Source: Rhodobacterales bacterium (GTDB lineage: Bacteria; Pseudomonadota; Alphaproteobacteria; Rhizobiales; Stappiaceae). Taken from it: DNA of 64,000 nucleotides. The DNA is taken from NCBI GenBank assembly GCA_008107755.1, contig VIRH01000087.1:62001-126000 (forward strand), read 5' to 3'. The notes under the pieces are model-generated. The model ran no database searches. It was given only the letters and a program-made list of their open reading frames with translations, and was not told where the DNA came from. This document shows, in pieces, positions 33,882 to 60,396 of the stretch; position 1 is the stretch's first letter, and each line of letters opens with the position of its first letter. The position numbers were made by a program, and so were the translations under genes.

Positions 33882-34225
33882 CGCAAGCCCCCTGCGATCT
33901 CCCCGCATCGCAGGCCGCACAGGTATTCAGCTTCCAGACAGGCGCGCAGCTTTCGAACCTGCGCGGTCGGCCCGCCCCAAACCCGCTCACCTTGCGGGCC
34001 GACCTTTTTCCGCCGTCGCTTTCCGCGCCATCGAGCGCCTCCGGATCGCGCTGCAAGCCCAGGCCGAGCCATCGCCACATGCCGGCGAGGTCCTTATACC
34101 CCGGCTTCCGACACGACAGTTCCTGACACCATTGTGTCAGCAGACTGGCAAGAAGTTGGAAAAACCGGAACAAACCCGCAACTGCCCCCTTTCCTCTCGC
34201 GCGCAGGCGAACCATATTGCGCATC
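33882..34225. other. 344-bp region upstream of uvrB
   Basis: An 8-bp hairpin (CCTGCGAT 33891-33898 / ATCGCAGG 33907-33914) just past the DUF1344 stop may terminate that unit, though it has no T-run. At 34168-34182 GAAC-N7-CAAC is one base off the alphaproteobacterial LexA box (GAAC-N7-GAAC); I treat it as only suggestive. No gene supported. Confidence 0.4.
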
Positions 34226-37141
<2,916 letters not shown>

Positions 37142-37273: not shown

Positions 37274-37426
37274 CGGTCATCCCCGCCTTGCCGGGGATCC
37301 AATCCACGTTGCCTCGACGACGGGGCGTAGCCCCTCGAAACAGATATCGCCGTCCTCTAGGCTGAAAACCAAATCTCTGGAAGCCAATGGATCCCCGATC
37401 TGCGCTGCGCTTGTCGGGGATGACCG
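37274..37426. repeat. Inverted-pair repeat module, copy 1
   Basis: Ends are GCGGTCATCCCCG and its exact complement-reverse CGGGGATGACCGC (13 bp). Each end is itself part of a hairpin (ATCCCCG..CGGGGAT). The ~100-bp core is noncoding. First of six related modules; copy 2 starts about 251 bp downstream. Confidence 0.85.
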
Positions 37427-37528
37427 CTGAGGGAAGCGGATAAGTTGCTTTCAAGCTAGAAGTTCGACCAACGCCCGCCTCTTGCGCGGCACCCATGCCT
37501 TCTTTCAGCATCCGTCACCTTTCGGCCG

Positions 37529-37678
37529 TCATCCCCGCCTTGCGCGGGGATCCAAACCACGTCGCTTCAACGACGGTAAGCGGCCCTTGGAAACGGATAT
37601 CGCCGCCCCGCCTAGCCTGAAGACCATAGCTCTGGAAGCCATTGGATCCCCGATCTGCGCTGCGCTTGTCGGGGATAA
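37529..37678. repeat. Inverted-pair repeat module, copy 2
   Basis: Starts TCATCCCCGCCTTGCGCGGG and ends CTTGTCGGGGATAA, with the terminal TGA changed to TAA. The core contains the shared phrases GGAAACGGATATCGCCG and CTCTGGAAGCCATTGG. After it the repeat spacer is lost and the GIY-YIG unit follows. Confidence 0.85.
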
Positions 37679-37786
37679 CTGCCAAGGGTATCGGATAGGT
37701 CGCCCGCTGCCTGGAAGACCGGGATAATGCCTTGCACGCGACGGGCGTTCCATTTTCGAGCCCATGTGCCTCTCCACGTTGGACTT

Positions 37787-38161
37787 CCCCGGCTTGACCG
37801 GGGATCCAATGCACTGTGAAAAAGCAGGATGATGTTTTTTGTCTATGTTCTGGCGAGCCGACAGCGCGGAACGCTCTATACCGGCGTGACCAACGATCTG
37901 GCGCGCCGTGTTCACGAGCATCGGGAGAAAACCGCGAGCGGGTTCACTCGTCGATACGATGTCACGCGTCTCGTCTATTACGAGACATTCGACACGCCAG
38001 ATGCTGCCATCGCCCGCGAGAAGCGCCTCAAGCGCTGGCCACGCGAATGGAAGATCCAGGCGATCGAAAATTTCAATCCGGGCTGGCAGGACCTCTATGA
38101 AGACCTGAACCGGTAGATTGGCCTTGCGGAAAACTCGATTGGATCCCCGGTCAAGCCGGGG
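37787..38161. mobile_element. Candidate GIY-YIG mobile unit with 24-bp terminal inverted repeats
   Basis: The gene at 37829-38116 is bracketed by 37787-37810 and 38138-38161, which are exact reverse complements over 24 bp. Each end is also a hairpin (CCCCGG-CTTGA-CCGGGG followed by ATCCAAT). The ends lie 18 bp upstream of the start codon and 21 bp past the stop, so the unit is one gene plus two REP-like ends, 375 bp in all. It is inserted between module copies 2 and 3 of the surrounding array, whose termini belong to the same sequence family. I see no clear target-site duplication. Confidence 0.6.
37829..38116 (+). CDS. Single-domain GIY-YIG nuclease-family protein
   Basis: A 95-residue protein that is just a GIY-YIG domain of the UPF0213/YhbQ-like kind. 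The signature appears as FVYVLASRQRGTLYTGVTND (Y-V-Y ... Y-T-G), followed by LARRVHEHR with the catalytic Arg and AAIAREKRLKRWPREWK with the catalytic Glu and a basic DNA-contacting helix. These proteins are putative structure- or sequence-specific nucleases whose biological role is not settled. A double ATG starts the gene (37829, 37832). Immediate inverted repeats on both sides suggest that its substrate is the repeat hairpin itself; that is my inference. Confidence 0.9.
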   Translation: MMFFVYVLASRQRGTLYTGVTNDLARRVHEHREKTASGFTRRYDVTRLVYYETFDTPDAAIAREKRLKRWPREWKIQAIENFNPGWQDLYEDLNR

Positions 38162-38263
38162 ATGACAGCAGAGGATTTGTTGCAGCCGCTCGAGCGGGCA
38201 ACAAACTGGACATTCTCCGTACCGTGCAGATCTCCATTTTCATGACGCATCCCCCTTCGGCAG

Positions 38264-38415
38264 TCATCCCCGCCCTGCGCGGGGATCCAATCCACGTCGC
38301 CTCAACGAAGGTACGCGGCCCTTGGAAACGGATATCGCCGCCGCCACCAGTGCCTCAAGACCATAGCGCTGGAAGCCATTGGATCCCCGATCTGCGCTGC
38401 GCTTGTCGGGGATGA
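38264..38415. repeat. Inverted-pair repeat module, copy 3
   Basis: TCATCCCCGCCCTGCGCGGG at the left and TTGTCGGGGATGA at the right end. It starts the run of four modules in strict tandem. A conserved spacer of about 105 bp (TTGC-TTTCAAGCTAGAAGC type) links it to copy 4. Confidence 0.88.
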
Positions 38416-38520
38416 CCGCTGAGGGAAGCAGGGAGGCTGCTTTCAAGCTAGAAGCTCGACCGACGCCCGCCTCATGCACGGCACCAAAGCCCGCGTTTCA
38501 GCCTCCGTACCCTTCGGCAG

Positions 38521-38668
38521 TCATCCCCGCCTTGCGCGGGGATCCAATCCACGTTGCCTCGACGACGGTACGCGGCCCTGGAAAACGGATATCGCCGCAC
38601 CATCAACTGATGACCAAAACTCTGGAAGCCATTGGATCCCCGATCTACGCTACGCTTGTCGGGGATGA
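38521..38668. repeat. Inverted-pair repeat module, copy 4
   Basis: Begins 257 bp after copy 3. The 3' hairpin loop has two point changes (CTACGCTACGC instead of CTGCGCTGCGC), and its core differs from others around 38600-38615. The spacer to copy 5 is nearly identical to that after copy 3. Confidence 0.88.
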
Positions 38669-38773
38669 CCGCTGAGGGAATCGGATAAGTTGCTTTCAAG
38701 CTAGAAGCTCGACCGACGCCCGCCTCATGCACGGCACCAAAGCCCGCGTTTCAGCCTCCGTACCCTTCGGCAG

Positions 38774-38923
38774 TCATCCCCGCCTTGCGCGGGGATCCAA
38801 TCCACGTCGCTTCGACAACGGGACGCGGCCCTGGAAAACGGATATCGCCGCCCCACCTAGCCTGAAGACCAAAGCTCTGGAAGCCAATGGATCCCCGATC
38901 TGCGCTGCGCTTGTCGGGGATGA
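38774..38923. repeat. Inverted-pair repeat module, copy 5
   Basis: Begins 253 bp after copy 4 and is closest to copy 1 in its core (GCCTGAAGACCAAAGCTCTGG). Left terminus TCATCCCCGCCTTGCGCGGG, right terminus TCGGGGATGA. Confidence 0.88.
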
Positions 38924-39029
38924 CCGCTGAGGGAATCGGATAAGTTGCTTTCAAGCTAGAAGCTCGACCGACGCCCGCCTCATGCACGGCACCAGCTTCC
39001 TTCTTTCAGCATCCGTCCCCCTTCGGCAG

Positions 39030-39181
39030 TCATCCCCGCCTTGCGCGGGGATCCACTCCACGTTGCCTCGACGACGGTACGCGGCCCTTGGAAACGGATA
39101 TCGCCGCCGCCACCAGTGCCTCAAGACCATAGCTCTGGAAGCCATTGGATCCCCGATCTGCGCTGCGCTTGCCGGGGATGA
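39030..39181. repeat. Inverted-pair repeat module, copy 6
   Basis: Begins 256 bp after copy 5. Its core matches copy 3 (CGCCGCCACCAGTGCCTCAAG). Its 3' hairpin reads GCCGGGGATGA, and the tandem spacer is not repeated afterwards, so this is the array's right boundary. Confidence 0.88.
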
Positions 39182-39310
39182 CGGCCGCAGGTGGCGGCAA
39201 GAAGGTTTTCAGCGGGCGGAAGATCGGGCGCTGGAGCGAGCTCCTGACGGCCTGCGGGACCCGGCGCCAGCGGTCAGCGCGAGCAACGCCAGCTCTTCTT
39301 CCAAACAAAA

Positions 39311-39362: not shown

Positions 39363-41258
39363 TTACTGGTTCCGAGCGCTCAGTAGCGGGGTGATGTTGC
39401 GCAGGGTGACGCGGCGGTTGCGTTCTTCAGCGCCCTGTGTGTCGATCTTCAGGTAGTCCTCGCCATAGCCCTGGACGACCATGTTCTCCGGCGGGACGCC
39501 GTAGACTTCCGACAGGATGCGGGCGACGGTTTCCGCGCGGCGGTCGGAAAGGGCGAGGTTAGAAACCTCCGAACCGACCGCATCCGTGTGCCCTTCGATA
39601 AGCAGCACGGTGGACGGGTCCTCGTCGATCATGGCGATCGATGCACGGGCGATGTCCTCCAGCTGAGGCACCTGGCTCTGGCGGACGACGGCGCTGCCCG
39701 TGTCGAAGGTGATCGTGTCGAGGTCGACGCGGCGAACCTTGTCGCGCAGGCGCTCGCTCTCGCGAACCTCACGCAGGGAATAGGCCTGCTCCACCTGCTC
39801 CACCGGCGGCGCAGTGAAGGTCTGGTAGATGTCGTCGTAGTTCGCTTGCCCGGCCGGAACGATGTAGCGGTCGCGCGGGATGTCGACACGCAGCGGCGGC
39901 AACTCGCGTTCGTAGTAGTTGCGGCGGCGACGATCCTCACGGAAGTTGCGGTTGTCGACCAGCACATATTCACGGCCATCCGGCAGCACGCGCGAGCGGT
40001 AGAGGATGTAGCCGCCCTCGTCGCGGATCGTGACGATGCGCGTTCCGTTCTGGCGCGTCACGATTTCCCGCGTCCGGCCACCGCGCAGCCGCTCGGCGCG
40101 GAACTCCGCATCGCCGTAGCGCAGCAGGCTGTTCTCGTCCTTGCGGACGTAATAGTCGCCGTCCCGTTCCACGATCAGGCGGTCCCCCTGGTCCTCGACA
40201 ACCTTTCCGCCGAGGGCGGGGATCAGCATGCCGATGCCAGCACCGACTGCGGCCGCACCCAGAAGCTCAAGACGGCGGTCGCGGGCATCGTCCCGGCGAC
40301 GCTCTTCCTGCTGCTTGATCTCGGTGCGTTGTGCATTGGTGATATCGTCGGACACCACGGCAGCCGGCTCGATCGGTTCGGATGCTGCTTTCTGCTCGAT
40401 CAGCTCGCCAGGTTCCTTGGTCACATCCTCGGCAGGCTGCGCCTGCTGCTCGGTCTGTTCCGCGGGCTGCTCGCCGGCAGTCGTTTCAGCGTCGGCTTCG
40501 GACGCAGCCGGAGCCTCACCCGTGGCCTCCGCCGGCTGTTCGTCGGTCGCTTCGGGCTTGACGGCAGGTTCGGCGGTTTCCTCGGTGGCGGCCGGAGCGG
40601 CTTCACTCGCTTCGGGCTTTGCGTCCGGGGTGGTTTCTTCGGTCGGCGCAGCCGGCTTTTCAGAAGGCTGGGCTTCGGTCGTCGGTGTGGCCGGTTTTTC
40701 CTCTGGCGCAGTTTCCTCTACCGGAGCCTCGGGCTTTTCTGCAGGAGCGGCCTCTTCGGTGGGCGCAGCCTCCGGGACGGGAGCCGGGTCCTCCACGGCG
40801 GCCGGCTCTTCGCTGGCAGCCGGCTCGGAAGCCGGAGCAGCTTCTTCAGCGGCAGGTTCTTCCGCAGCCGGAGCGGCTTCTGCAGGAGCTTCCTGAGCAG
40901 GGGCAATTTCTTCCGCCGGAGCCTCGGCCGGCGGAGCTGGCACTTCCTGCGCGGGCTGGGCTGCGGGTTCTTCCGCCGCCGGCTGCGGCGCGGGCTCTTC
41001 GGCCGCCGGCTCGACAGGGGCCTGCTCGACAGGGGCTTGCTCGGCAGGCGCTTGCTCGGCAGGAGCCGGCTGTGCCTCGGGCTCCGCAGGCGCCTCATCG
41101 GCAGGCTGCGCGGCACCGCCCCCACAGGCAGCGTTCTGCGGGTCGGCGGAGCAGTCGACTGCATTGTCCTGGGCAAAGCTGATGCCTGGCTGAACCGGCA
41201 TGCTCATTGCAAGCACCATGGCCAGCGCGGTCGTGTTGCGCAACAGTGTGGACGTCAT
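39363..41258 (-). CDS. OmpA-family protein with long Pro/Ala/Glu-rich domain
   Basis: A 631-residue envelope protein. A Sec signal (LRNTTALAMVLAMSMPVQPGISFA) leads to an AQDNAVDCSADPQNAACGGG segment, then about 270 residues of Pro/Ala/Glu/Thr low complexity (roughly 45-315), which should be extended and could span periplasm or wall. A glycine-rich hydrophobic stretch (LLGAAAVGAGIGMLIPALGG, about 345-365) may be a membrane or lipid-contact element. The C-terminal 115 residues are an OmpA peptidoglycan-binding domain (LLIEGHTDAVGSEVSNLALSDRRAETV). AGAGGAAAAG precedes ATG 41258. Likely tethers the outer envelope to peptidoglycan. Confidence 0.88.
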   Translation of the reverse strand: MTSTLLRNTTALAMVLAMSMPVQPGISFAQDNAVDCSADPQNAACGGGAAQPADEAPAEPEAQPAPAEQAPAEQAPVEQAPVEPAAEEPAPQPAAEEPAAQPAQEVPAPPAEAPAEEIAPAQEAPAEAAPAAEEPAAEEAAPASEPAASEEPAAVEDPAPVPEAAPTEEAAPAEKPEAPVEETAPEEKPATPTTEAQPSEKPAAPTEETTPDAKPEASEAAPAATEETAEPAVKPEATDEQPAEATGEAPAASEADAETTAGEQPAEQTEQQAQPAEDVTKEPGELIEQKAASEPIEPAAVVSDDITNAQRTEIKQQEERRRDDARDRRLELLGAAAVGAGIGMLIPALGGKVVEDQGDRLIVERDGDYYVRKDENSLLRYGDAEFRAERLRGGRTREIVTRQNGTRIVTIRDEGGYILYRSRVLPDGREYVLVDNRNFREDRRRRNYYERELPPLRVDIPRDRYIVPAGQANYDDIYQTFTAPPVEQVEQAYSLREVRESERLRDKVRRVDLDTITFDTGSAVVRQSQVPQLEDIARASIAMIDEDPSTVLLIEGHTDAVGSEVSNLALSDRRAETVARILSEVYGVPPENMVVQGYGEDYLKIDTQGAEERNRRVTLRNITPLLSARNQ

Positions 41259-41432
41259 GTTCTTTTCCTCTTGGGCATGTGCCTCTTCTCCCGCGCCGGC
41301 AACGGCGCCTTGGGAGGCAAACAGCGTGAGGAAGGAATGGTTCCGACCGGGACTGTCGGGCCAATCGCCTGACAAGCCGCGTGGCAGAAAGCGTATGGCG
41401 ACATCTCGGCCGCGGCCGCCAGACACAAAAAA

Positions 41433-58419: not shown

Positions 58420-60396
58420 ATGACTGTCATGCAGGACATGTCCGATTCACATAATCCGACCGACACTGACGCGGCTGAAGACGCGCGTCCCGTCAGGAAA
58501 GGCGTGGAGGTCATCGCCGACGAGGTGAAACGGCTTCCCAACGGACCCGGCGTCTATCGCATGCTCGATGAGAAGGGCGAAGTCCTTTACGTCGGCAAGG
58601 CACGAAGCCTCAAGAAGCGTGTCACCAGCTACACCCGCCTCCAGGGGCAGTCCAACCGGATCATGCGCATGATCCTGGCCACCGCCGCGATGGAGTTCGT
58701 GGTAACCCGGACGGAGCCGGAAGCGCTGCTTCTGGAAGCCAACCTCATCAAGAGGCTGCGCCCGCGTTTCAACGTGCTTTTGCGCGACGATAAGTCCTTT
58801 CCGTATATCCTCGTGACGGGCGATCACGAGTCCCCGGCCATCGTCAAGCATCGCGGCGCGCGCAAGCGCAAGGGTGATTACTTCGGCCCCTTCGCCTCCG
58901 CCGGCGCAGTCGACCGCACGATCAACGCCCTCCAGAAGGCCTTCCTGATCCGGACCTGCTCGGACAGCTACTACGAAAACAGGTCCCGACCCTGCCTTCA
59001 GTACCAGATCAAGCGCTGCGCGGGCCCGTGCACCGGCGAGATCGACGCAGACGATTATGCCGGCCTCGTCGCCGAGGCGAAGGCCTTCCTGTCCGGGCGG
59101 AGCCAGCTCATCAAGAAGCAGCTTGCCGAGCAGATGGAAGCAGCCTCCGCCGATCTGGAATTCGAACGCGCTGCCATCTACCGCGACCGGTTGACCGCGC
59201 TGTCCCATGTCCAGGCGCATCAGGGCATTAACCCGCAATCGGTCGAAGAGGCGGATGTCTTTGCCATCCATCAGGAAGGCGGCCAGACCTGCGTTCAGGT
59301 CTTCTTCTTCCGAACCGGCCAGAACTGGGGCAACAGGGCCTATTTCCCAAAGGCCGACAAGTCGCTCGAGGAAGCCGAGATCCTGGAGAGTTTCCTCGCC
59401 CAGTTCTACGACGACAAACCCGCCCCGCGGCAGATCCTGCTGTCGCATGCGCTTGCCGAACAGGAGCTGCTCGCACAAGCGTTGGGCGAGAGGACCGGTC
59501 GCAAGGTGGACGTTGCGACACCCCAACGCGGCGAGAAGAAGGAACTGGTCGACCACGCCCTGACCAATGCCCGCGAAGCCCTCGGCAGGCGTCTCGCGGA
59601 AACGTCCAGCCAGGCCCGCCTGCTCAAGGGGGTTGCCGAAGCCTTCGATCTGCAAGCGCCTCCGCGCCGGATCGAAGTCTACGACAACTCCCACATCATG
59701 GGTACCAATGCAGTCGGCGGCATGATCGTTGCCGGCGGCGAAGGCTTCACCAAGGGGCAGTACCGGAAATTCAACATCAAGTCGGAAGACCTCGTGCCCG
59801 GCGACGACTACGGCATGATGCGCGAAGTCCTGACCCGCCGGTTCTCCCGCCTGCTGAAGGAACACGCCCGCGAATTGCCCACGAAAGATCAGCCCGAGGC
59901 AGACGAAGACAGCGACGGCGACGTGCCGGCGGCGCCGGCAGACATGCCCGCATGGCCGGACCTCGTCCTGATCGACGGTGGTCAGGGCCAACTGACGGCG
60001 GCGCGCGAAACGCTGGAGGAACTCGGCATCACCGATGTCCCCCTCGTCGGTATCGCCAAGGGACCCGACCGTGATGCCGGGCGGGAGAAATTCTTCATCC
60101 CCGGGCGGCAGTCCTTCATGCTGCCGGAACGGGACCCGGTCCTCTATTTCGTCCAGCGCCTGCGCGACGAGGCGCACCGCTTCGCCATCGGCAGCCACCG
60201 TGCCCGTCGAAGCAAGGACATCGTCAAGAACCCGCTGGACGAGATTGCCGGCATCGGCCCGACGCGCAAGAAAGCGCTCTTGCGTCACTTCGGCACCGCC
60301 AAGGCCGTGTCAAAAGCCGGCGTCGACGACCTCGCCGCCGTTCCCGGCATTTCCGAAGCCATCGCCAAGCTGGTCTACGATCATTTTCACGAGTGA
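58420..60396 (+). CDS. uvrC: UvrABC excinuclease subunit C
   Basis: A 658-residue incision nuclease of nucleotide excision repair. A 35-residue N-tail precedes the GIY-YIG nuclease domain ([21 protein letters not shown]; catalytic Arg in SLKKRVTSY). A Cys-rich segment [16 protein letters not shown], a UVR domain ([20 protein letters not shown]), an RNase H-like second nuclease ([29 protein letters not shown]), and a C-terminal HhH pair ([20 protein letters not shown]) complete it. ATG candidates at 58420, 58429 and 58438. The gene is 21 kb from uvrB. Confidence 0.97.

Follow-up and report, generated by a model that had tools for sequence, protein, structure and literature searches.

A small GIY-YIG nuclease gene between inverted CGTC-tagged REP hairpins: a probable Ssn-type nuclease with its cognate repeats

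INTRODUCTION

What is a lone nuclease gene of 288 bp doing exactly between two inverted copies of a small hairpin? The gene lies between uvrB and an OmpA-like gene in the window, by which we mean the whole stretch of 64,000 nucleotides that was analyzed. A sequence-only reading of this DNA had suggested that gene and hairpins together could form a minimal mobile unit and had named them its best candidate for an undescribed system. One family of repeats with which such hairpins can be compared is that of the CGTC-tagged REPs. According to the available part of the 2013 survey by Di Nocera, these carry a CGTC tag, which often takes the form TGTC or CCTC, and have stems of 8 to 9 bp that nearly always start with A and T, loops of 4 to 5 nt, and tails that are mostly CCA; they are found mainly in alpha-proteobacteria and mainly as head-to-head dimers, and the neisserial dRS3 element is CGTC-1 (PMC3733652). 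The questions raised by the locus are whether the gene and its repeats belong together and, if so, what the nuclease does to the repeats.

RESULTS

The gene encodes a single GIY-YIG domain with conserved catalytic-type residues

The 288-bp gene called by the sequence-only reading (Table 1) is confirmed by a profile search, in which its 95-aa product matches the Pfam GIY-YIG family with an E value of 1.2e-16 over residues 1 to 77 of the 78-position domain model. Residues Y6, Y17, G19, R27, H31, E64, and N83, which are the catalytic-type residues of this domain, are kept in 93 to 100% of 182 aligned homologues, and this is the conservation that an active GIY-YIG nuclease would be expected to show. 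Going by this protein, the closest named relatives of the source genome are Roseibium/Labrenzia. A search of NCBIfam assigned it to no family, and the PDB returned two UPF0213 structures (E values of 2e-5 and 3e-5) and three further weak matches that look like chance hits. Searches of phage and plasmid records gave 5 weak records among 50,697 and 36 records among 72,556, respectively, and several of the latter are megaplasmids or chromosome-sized. We rejected a homing endonuclease, since the gene is intergenic and part of a REP array and is not in an intron, an intein, or a target gene.

A third GIY-YIG match, at about position 58549 of the window, lies within an open frame of 658 aa that is presumably UvrC, in which case uvrB and uvrC would share the 64-kb window. 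Elsewhere in the source genome there is a second single-domain GIY-YIG gene (G000:C61, locus L002 1495-1776), which is 35% identical to the first.

Table 1. Positions of the GIY-YIG gene, its neighbors, and the repeats of the array within the window
Feature	Position	Strand	Basis
uvrB, longest open frame	34217..37141	+	ORF list; GIY-YIG genes recur downstream of uvrB in the genus
REPIN-like unit (REP+ 37276-37301, REP- 37388-37424)	37276..37424	.	Array reading
REPIN-like unit (REP+ 37528-37554, REP- 37643-37679)	37528..37679	.	Array reading
Left REP hairpin, 5' tag degenerate, contains arm 37786-37810	37781..37810	+	Repeat search and array reading
Single-domain GIY-YIG nuclease gene, 95 aa	37829..38116	+	ORF list, Pfam, and residue conservation
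Right REP hairpin, intact, contains arm 38138-38162	38138..38166	-	Repeat search and array reading
REPIN-like unit	38263..38416	.	Array reading
REPIN-like unit	38520..38669	.	Array reading
REPIN-like unit	38773..38924	.	Array reading
REPIN-like unit	39029..39182	.	Array reading
OmpA-like gene, far side of array	39363..41426	-	Named from the sequence-only reading and the sequence, not from a family search

The gene unit occupies one slot in a regular array of REP pairs

The inverted repeats that bracket the gene had been described as exact, 24 bp long, and REP-like, each forming a small hairpin. They are indeed exact, they lie 18 nt ahead of the ATG and 21 nt past the stop codon as claimed, and each is a hairpin with the loop CTTGA, but on recount they are 25 nt long (the arms in Table 1). 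The likeness to REPs also stands, in that the hairpins fit the CGTC-tagged form. The right copy (38140-38166) is intact, reading GTC-ATCCCCGG-CTTGA-CCGGGGAT-CCA with an 8-bp stem, and has every feature of a CGTC-tagged REP (a CGTC or TGTC tag, an A/T-starting stem of 8 to 9 bp, a loop of 4 to 5 nt, and a CCA tail). The left copy deviates in its 5' tag, which is GGACT in place of the GTCAT seen in the others.

Both copies belong to an array of 14 REPs that runs from 37276 to 39182 in strict plus/minus alternation, which is seven alternating pairs, the gene unit being one of the seven. The plus copies start at the first position of each unit in Table 1 (37781 for the gene unit) and follow one another in steps of 252, 253, 482, 257, 253, and 256 nt, of which 482 nt is the gene unit; the gene unit itself starts 253 nt past the start of the REPIN-like unit that precedes it (37528..37679). 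Measured between the end of one pair and the start of the plus copy that follows, the gaps are 103 and 101 nt ahead of the gene unit, 96 nt behind it, and 103, 103, and 104 nt thereafter. By this spacing the gene unit keeps the phase of the array and occupies the slot of another REPIN-like pair. A 22-nt core of the repeat has 6 matches in the window at up to 3 mismatches, versus 0 in 100 shuffles.

Close variants of the gene's repeat are dispersed through the source genome

Across the source genome there are 33 matches to the repeat class at up to 3 mismatches, the gene's own ends counted in, versus 0 for a reversed control. The gene's ends, CCCCGGCTTGACCGGGG, are one compensated base pair apart from the dispersed majority form, CCCCGACTTGATCGGGG, which is present in 16 exact 25-nt copies. 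The class is multicopy both genome-wide and around the gene; within this genome the exact gene-end variant is found only at the gene, and the other copies are close variants of it in the same class. As a separate observation, both ends of the gene unit (37786-37810 and 38138-38162) depart from the dispersed class-A repeats by an identical compensated change in the stem, as though the two were altered in concert, and the same stem variant is also found upstream of the G014 gene.

A census of neighboring repeats no more than 1 kb apart, taken over the loci of the source genome and its relatives with the named loci left out, gave 75 pairs: 32 inward, 25 outward, and 18 in the same direction. Of the inward pairs, 21 enclose 60 to 100 nt (most commonly 96 nt), 10 are gene units that enclose 340 to 360 nt, and the last encloses more. 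Spacing varies more widely in the other orientations, the tightest group being 6 of the 25 outward pairs at 120 to 140 nt.

The second single-domain gene (L002) has neighboring repeats of another class, CCTCATCCTGAGG and its kin, as do the genus members of its clade. It sits inside a cluster of CCTCATCCTGAGG-type repeats, so that this genome holds a second, distinct pairing of gene and repeat.

Flanking inverted repeats are frequent at single-domain GIY-YIG loci

We scored inverted repeats at 108 distinct single-domain GIY-YIG loci, comprising the relatives and 80 named loci, and at 407 length-matched windows drawn at random from these loci. With the main cut-off set at a score of 15, flanking repeats are present at 63 of the 108 loci and in 4 of the 407 random windows; the corresponding counts are 81 and 12 at a cut-off of 12, and 45 and 2 at a cut-off of 20. 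Homologues that lack flanking repeats, which the sequence-only reading had named as evidence against its own proposal, do exist, since 45 of the 108 loci fall under the score-15 threshold and no inverted repeat was found in the flanks of E. coli yhbQ (score 8). YhbQ is a single-domain GIY-YIG protein of the UPF0213 type, and on the basis of 25% identity and this repeat-free flank we rejected it as an ortholog.

With ranks taken from record titles, the loci that pass at a score of 15 are 32 of 54 in Alphaproteobacteria and 20 of 34 among unranked loci and unnamed relatives. The remaining loci are few and mixed (for example, Nitrospirota, 1/1; Thermodesulfobacteriota, 1/1; Bdellovibrionota, 3/3; Chloroflexota, 1/2; Bacteroidota, 1/3; Ignavibacteriota, 0/2; Gammaproteobacteria, 0/1). 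Taxon names in the survey are unsure because many of the loci are from metagenome bins.

A strict upstream hairpin (GTC, stem, 5-nt loop, stem) is present at 57 of 182 genes and absent from the other 125, versus 11 of 910 windows. Among these 57 hairpins, the loop is CTTGA or CTTGT in 49, the end is CCA in 46, and there are 26 distinct stems; the distance from hairpin to domain start is 22 to 28 nt in 44 of the 57 genes. Complementarity between the arms reaches 96% over the 19 distinct pairs of 9-bp stems, compared with a mean of 64% and a maximum of 76% for shuffled arms. Based on the hairpin counts and on this complementarity, we conclude that tag, loop, and tail are near constant while the stem varies with compensation. 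Chance palindromes were rejected as an explanation, since the 22-nt core is absent from shuffles and both the locus counts and the hairpin counts are far above those of random windows. At one GIY-YIG gene (L250, in G009), a far longer hairpin lies directly downstream, with a best score of 32 versus about 8 to 12 typically.

Repeat class follows the gene phylogeny

The gene tree holds 113 genes among the matches listed, 108 from the genus and 5 from outside it; many of its forks are unresolved, its bootstrap values are unsettled, and long branches are flagged. The genus set consists of the matches listed, with 60 regions added and six listed places left out (one each on G001:C33, G013:C28, G021:C8, and G023:C3 and two on G031:C38). 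Repeat-class labels come from patterns written after the hairpins had been inspected, with classes B and D, and the variants of class A, merged. The 37 genes without a single repeat label were set aside, which leaves 76 labelled genes in 10 classes.

On this tree the repeat class of the 76 genes changes 11 times, while 200 shuffles of the labels give a mean of 51.7 changes and a minimum of 46. A label-free Mantel comparison of protein and repeat distance over 55 distinct proteins gives a rho of 0.48, which was reached by 0 of 2000 permutations (maximum, 0.25). The pairing of nuclease gene and terminal hairpins that the sequence-only reading had suspected is therefore borne out by the flanked loci (63/108), by the covariation of the stems, and by the way the repeat class follows the gene tree.

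With the gene sets of clades A, C, D, and K read off the tree by eye, the 20 genomes that have a clade-A gene among the matches listed carry more exact class-A repeats than the 25 that do not (p = 7e-4). Class C repeats are likewise commoner where the matches listed include the gene (5 versus 40 genus genomes, p = 1.5e-4), as are class D repeats (7 versus 38, p = 4e-4); all three tests, over 45 genus genomes, treat related genomes as independent. The exact class-A repeat is missing from 5 of the 20 clade-A genomes and present in 11 of the 25 others; among genomes that lack the cognate gene, 8 of 40 have the class C repeat and 6 of 38 the class D repeat. Gene and repeat thus do not fully coincide, and dispersed repeats outlive, precede, or diverge from the gene. 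One exact class-B variant is found in G021 and G029 only, at both tandem variant-carrying genes of each, with one extra copy just past the tandem genes in G021; the other class-B genes (G001 and G027) bear a different variant and were left uncounted.

The gene is mostly resident beside uvrB, and the short repeats are scattered

In 26 of the 43 genus genomes in which uvrB was found, uvrB is followed by a GIY-YIG gene no more than 6 kb downstream, mostly in one orientation per clade. The uvrB stretches of seven genomes are short, namely those of G027, G062, and five of the 17 genomes scored without such a gene (G013, G022, G029, G031, and G035). The uvrB-side genes are mostly of clades A and K, with four from the B/D clade. 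Among the matches listed, the 22 clade-A genes comprise 15 on the plus strand, 1 on the minus strand, and 6 outside the fetched uvrB stretch, and the 11 clade-K genes comprise 8 minus, 2 plus, and 1 outside the stretch.

The region from uvrB to ompA was compared at base level in 8 of the 42 other genomes. The gene and both repeats align as a single block in G006 (37786-38178), G010 (37786-38166), and G064 (37786-38152), with block edges at, or no more than 14 nt from, the REP bounds; in these three the repeats and the outer genes are all that aligns besides the block. In G020 the gene aligns as a separate block (37834-38116), apart from its repeats. In G002 and G012 nothing is alignable between uvrB and ompA; no GIY-YIG gene was found in that interval in G002, and in G012 it holds a GIY-YIG gene of another clade. 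A position beside uvrB is thus common but not fixed, fixity in all relatives having been named beforehand as evidence against mobility. The frequency and the orientation of the uvrB-side genes make the locus look resident, with losses, local tandem gene duplication, and perhaps some relocation. Of the proposed minimal mobile unit, the conserved REP-gene-REP block stands in G006, G010, and G064, but the gene is not freely hopping; the short repeats are what is scattered. Tandem copies of gene and repeat, 537 to 726 bp apart, are present in G021 (L062), G023 (L189), G029 (L224), and G068 (L181), and in G068 the two proteins are identical.

The comparison of dispersed sites covers two, L013 and L006. 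At L013 the source genome carries, between two genes, a class-A pair together with repeats of the CCTCATCCTGAGG type; in 40 of 44 relatives this interval is shorter by 300 bp or more, and repeats of either class were found in 0 of the 18 relatives read. At L006 the source genome has two class-A repeats, while in the 9 relatives read a class-A repeat was found in none and the CCTCATCCTGAGG type in 4. L006 is not a clean empty site, since of 29 genomes with both flanks 4 are shorter by at least 100 bp and 22 are longer. The source genome has a cognate gene for both class A and the CCTCATCCTGAGG type, and the simplest reading of the repeats at these two sites would be a recent gain in the source lineage.

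DISCUSSION

The N. gonorrhoeae homologue of the 95-aa protein is 53.9% identical to it over 89 aa (E value of 2e-25) and lies among dRS3-type repeats, which are palindromes of the GTCAT...ATCC form (flank score of 41). This homologue is probably the protein named Ssn, and the family studied here is presumably Ssn as well, the site-specific single-strand nucleases. In work of the Veyrier group (Nature Communications, 2025), neisserial Ssn is reportedly a single-strand-specific nuclease that cuts NTS repeats and affects transformation, and there are said to be thousands of homologues. Pairs of dRS3 in Neisseria go by the name NIME. The likeness to Ssn with its NTS/dRS3 repeats extends to the single GIY-YIG domain, the intact catalytic-type residues, 54% identity, and palindromes of the same form nearby. 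The differences are the stem sequence, the place of the unit here next to uvrB as part of a regular REPIN array, and the ten repeat classes that follow gene clades within the genus. Given this presumed family membership, the system is probably not an undescribed one.

We consider it likely that the gene encodes an Ssn-type single-domain GIY-YIG nuclease whose cognate repeats are CGTC-tagged REPs, which it would cut and thereby mobilize. The association of gene and repeat is real and general, and the protein probably adds one more member to the Ssn family. Observed here are that gene and repeat are paired and co-vary, where the block ends in some relatives, and that repeats at two sites are lineage specific. 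As for the mechanism, the protein would be a small sequence-specific nuclease that recognizes its REP as a single-stranded hairpin of the form GTC, stem of 8 to 9 bp, loop CTTG(A/T), other stem arm, CCA. Many subfamilies would have tag, loop, and tail in common, and the stem would set the specificity of each. The gene would have a copy of its own target on either side, one inverted relative to the other, with short non-coding target pairs (REPIN- or NIME-like, often with about 96 nt inside) scattered through the genome. Cutting may take place on the lagging strand or on incoming transforming DNA, wherever the hairpin is single stranded, and repair or replication of the cut intermediate might then copy repeats elsewhere and expand them locally. 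Recognition and cutting of the single-stranded hairpin seem most likely because of the conserved residues, the gonococcal kinship, and the reported Ssn work, while spread through the repair of cuts is favored because the gene is bracketed, the pairs are of fixed size, and no Y1 match was found in the source genome.

A competing account to which we give a little less than an even chance keeps the same nuclease-target pairing and differs in purpose. The nuclease would be a chromosomal regulator of incoming single-stranded DNA, cutting repeat-tagged DNA in transformation, and the repeats would mark genes and spread in some other way. That would suit both the interaction of Ssn with its repeats in Neisseria, which reportedly modulates transformation, and the residence of the gene largely at one locus. 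However, it leaves unexplained why the genes are bracketed by their own repeat, why the inward pairs are of fixed size, and why class-A pairs are found here but not in relatives at the two dispersed sites. We doubt an account in which the REP-gene-REP block is a transposable element in its own right and the short pairs are its MITEs. The coincidence of block edges with REPs in G006, G010, and G064, the 6 of 22 clade-A genes among the matches listed that are not in the uvrB stretch (a stretch that is short for G029 and G035), and the tandem gene copies in G021, G023, G029, and G068 would all agree with such an element, but the other 16 of the 22 adjoin uvrB, and 15 of these share an orientation. 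No target-site duplication was noticed on informal inspection, and to our knowledge GIY-YIG nucleases have no DNA-joining activity.

We find the two remaining accounts very hard to credit. If the REPs were mobilized by RAYT-type tyrosine transposases, the GIY-YIG gene would be a passenger. GTAG REPs are linked to RAYT in the available part of the Di Nocera survey, and both kinds of repeat are paired palindromes, but that same text reports no transposase gene flanked by CGTC REPs save a few fortuitous cases (PMC3733652). Moreover, a search for the Y1 transposase family of the RAYT fold (PF01797) found no match in the source genome and a match in 4 of 45 genus genomes, leaving 41 without, and the repeat class follows the GIY-YIG phylogeny. 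Slightly less credible still is that the hairpins are mere terminators or mRNA stabilizers that accumulated in an intergenic array, the position of the gene being chance. Intergenic hairpins are common, and the survey, in the part available, places REPs predominantly downstream of coding regions (PMC3733652); against this stand the excess of flanked loci over random windows, the tracking of the gene tree by repeat class, and an upstream copy that in 44 of 57 genes keeps its 22- to 28-nt distance from the domain start.

The preferred reading, of an Ssn-type nuclease with cognate REPs, invites comparison with the RAYT/REPIN system (the REPtron). The repeat classes of RAYTs are specific to gene subfamilies. 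As far as the accounts available to us go, the two systems share a REP-flanked gene, dispersed short REP pairs, and such subfamily-specific classes; they differ in that the enzyme here is of the GIY-YIG type and not an HUH tyrosine enzyme and in that the tag is CGTC and not GTAG. The repeats here have the tag, stem, loop, tail, and head-to-head form of CGTC-tagged REPs, for which the survey, in its available part, gave no dedicated enzyme, whereas here repeat classes of the same form accompany GIY-YIG genes (PMC3733652). It is possible, though we would not bet on it, that GIY-YIG genes are the long-missing mobilizers of the CGTC REP superfamily. They would make up a second, non-HUH kind of REPtron, one in which palindromic repeat families are maintained and spread by a hydrolytic nuclease of single strands instead of by a tyrosine transposase, and the hairpin stem would serve as a specificity code that can evolve. 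The link between repeat classes and GIY-YIG subfamilies provides CGTC REPs, neisserial dRS3 included, with a testable partner, and the co-varying stems provide a set of candidate orthogonal nuclease-target pairs. If the nuclease drives repeat gain as well, a hydrolytic enzyme would do the job of a transposase. A literature search at the level of titles and the starts of abstracts returned no work tying GIY-YIG nucleases to the upkeep or movement of CGTC REPs, which does not prove absence; it found REP papers without GIY-YIG and nothing relevant on GIY-YIG together with REPIN, dRS3, or transformation.

In G005, a HipA-like kinase and DUF3037 gene pair (L198, 6343-7919, minus strand) lies downstream of uvrB and is followed by a partial second copy of that gene, 185 bp from its 3' end, that is 91% identical to the original; this insert is absent from the close relatives G063 and G010. 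Copies of the uvrB tail are also found directly behind uvrB in G009 and G026, and it may be that elements integrate at the 3' end of uvrB and restore it as they insert.
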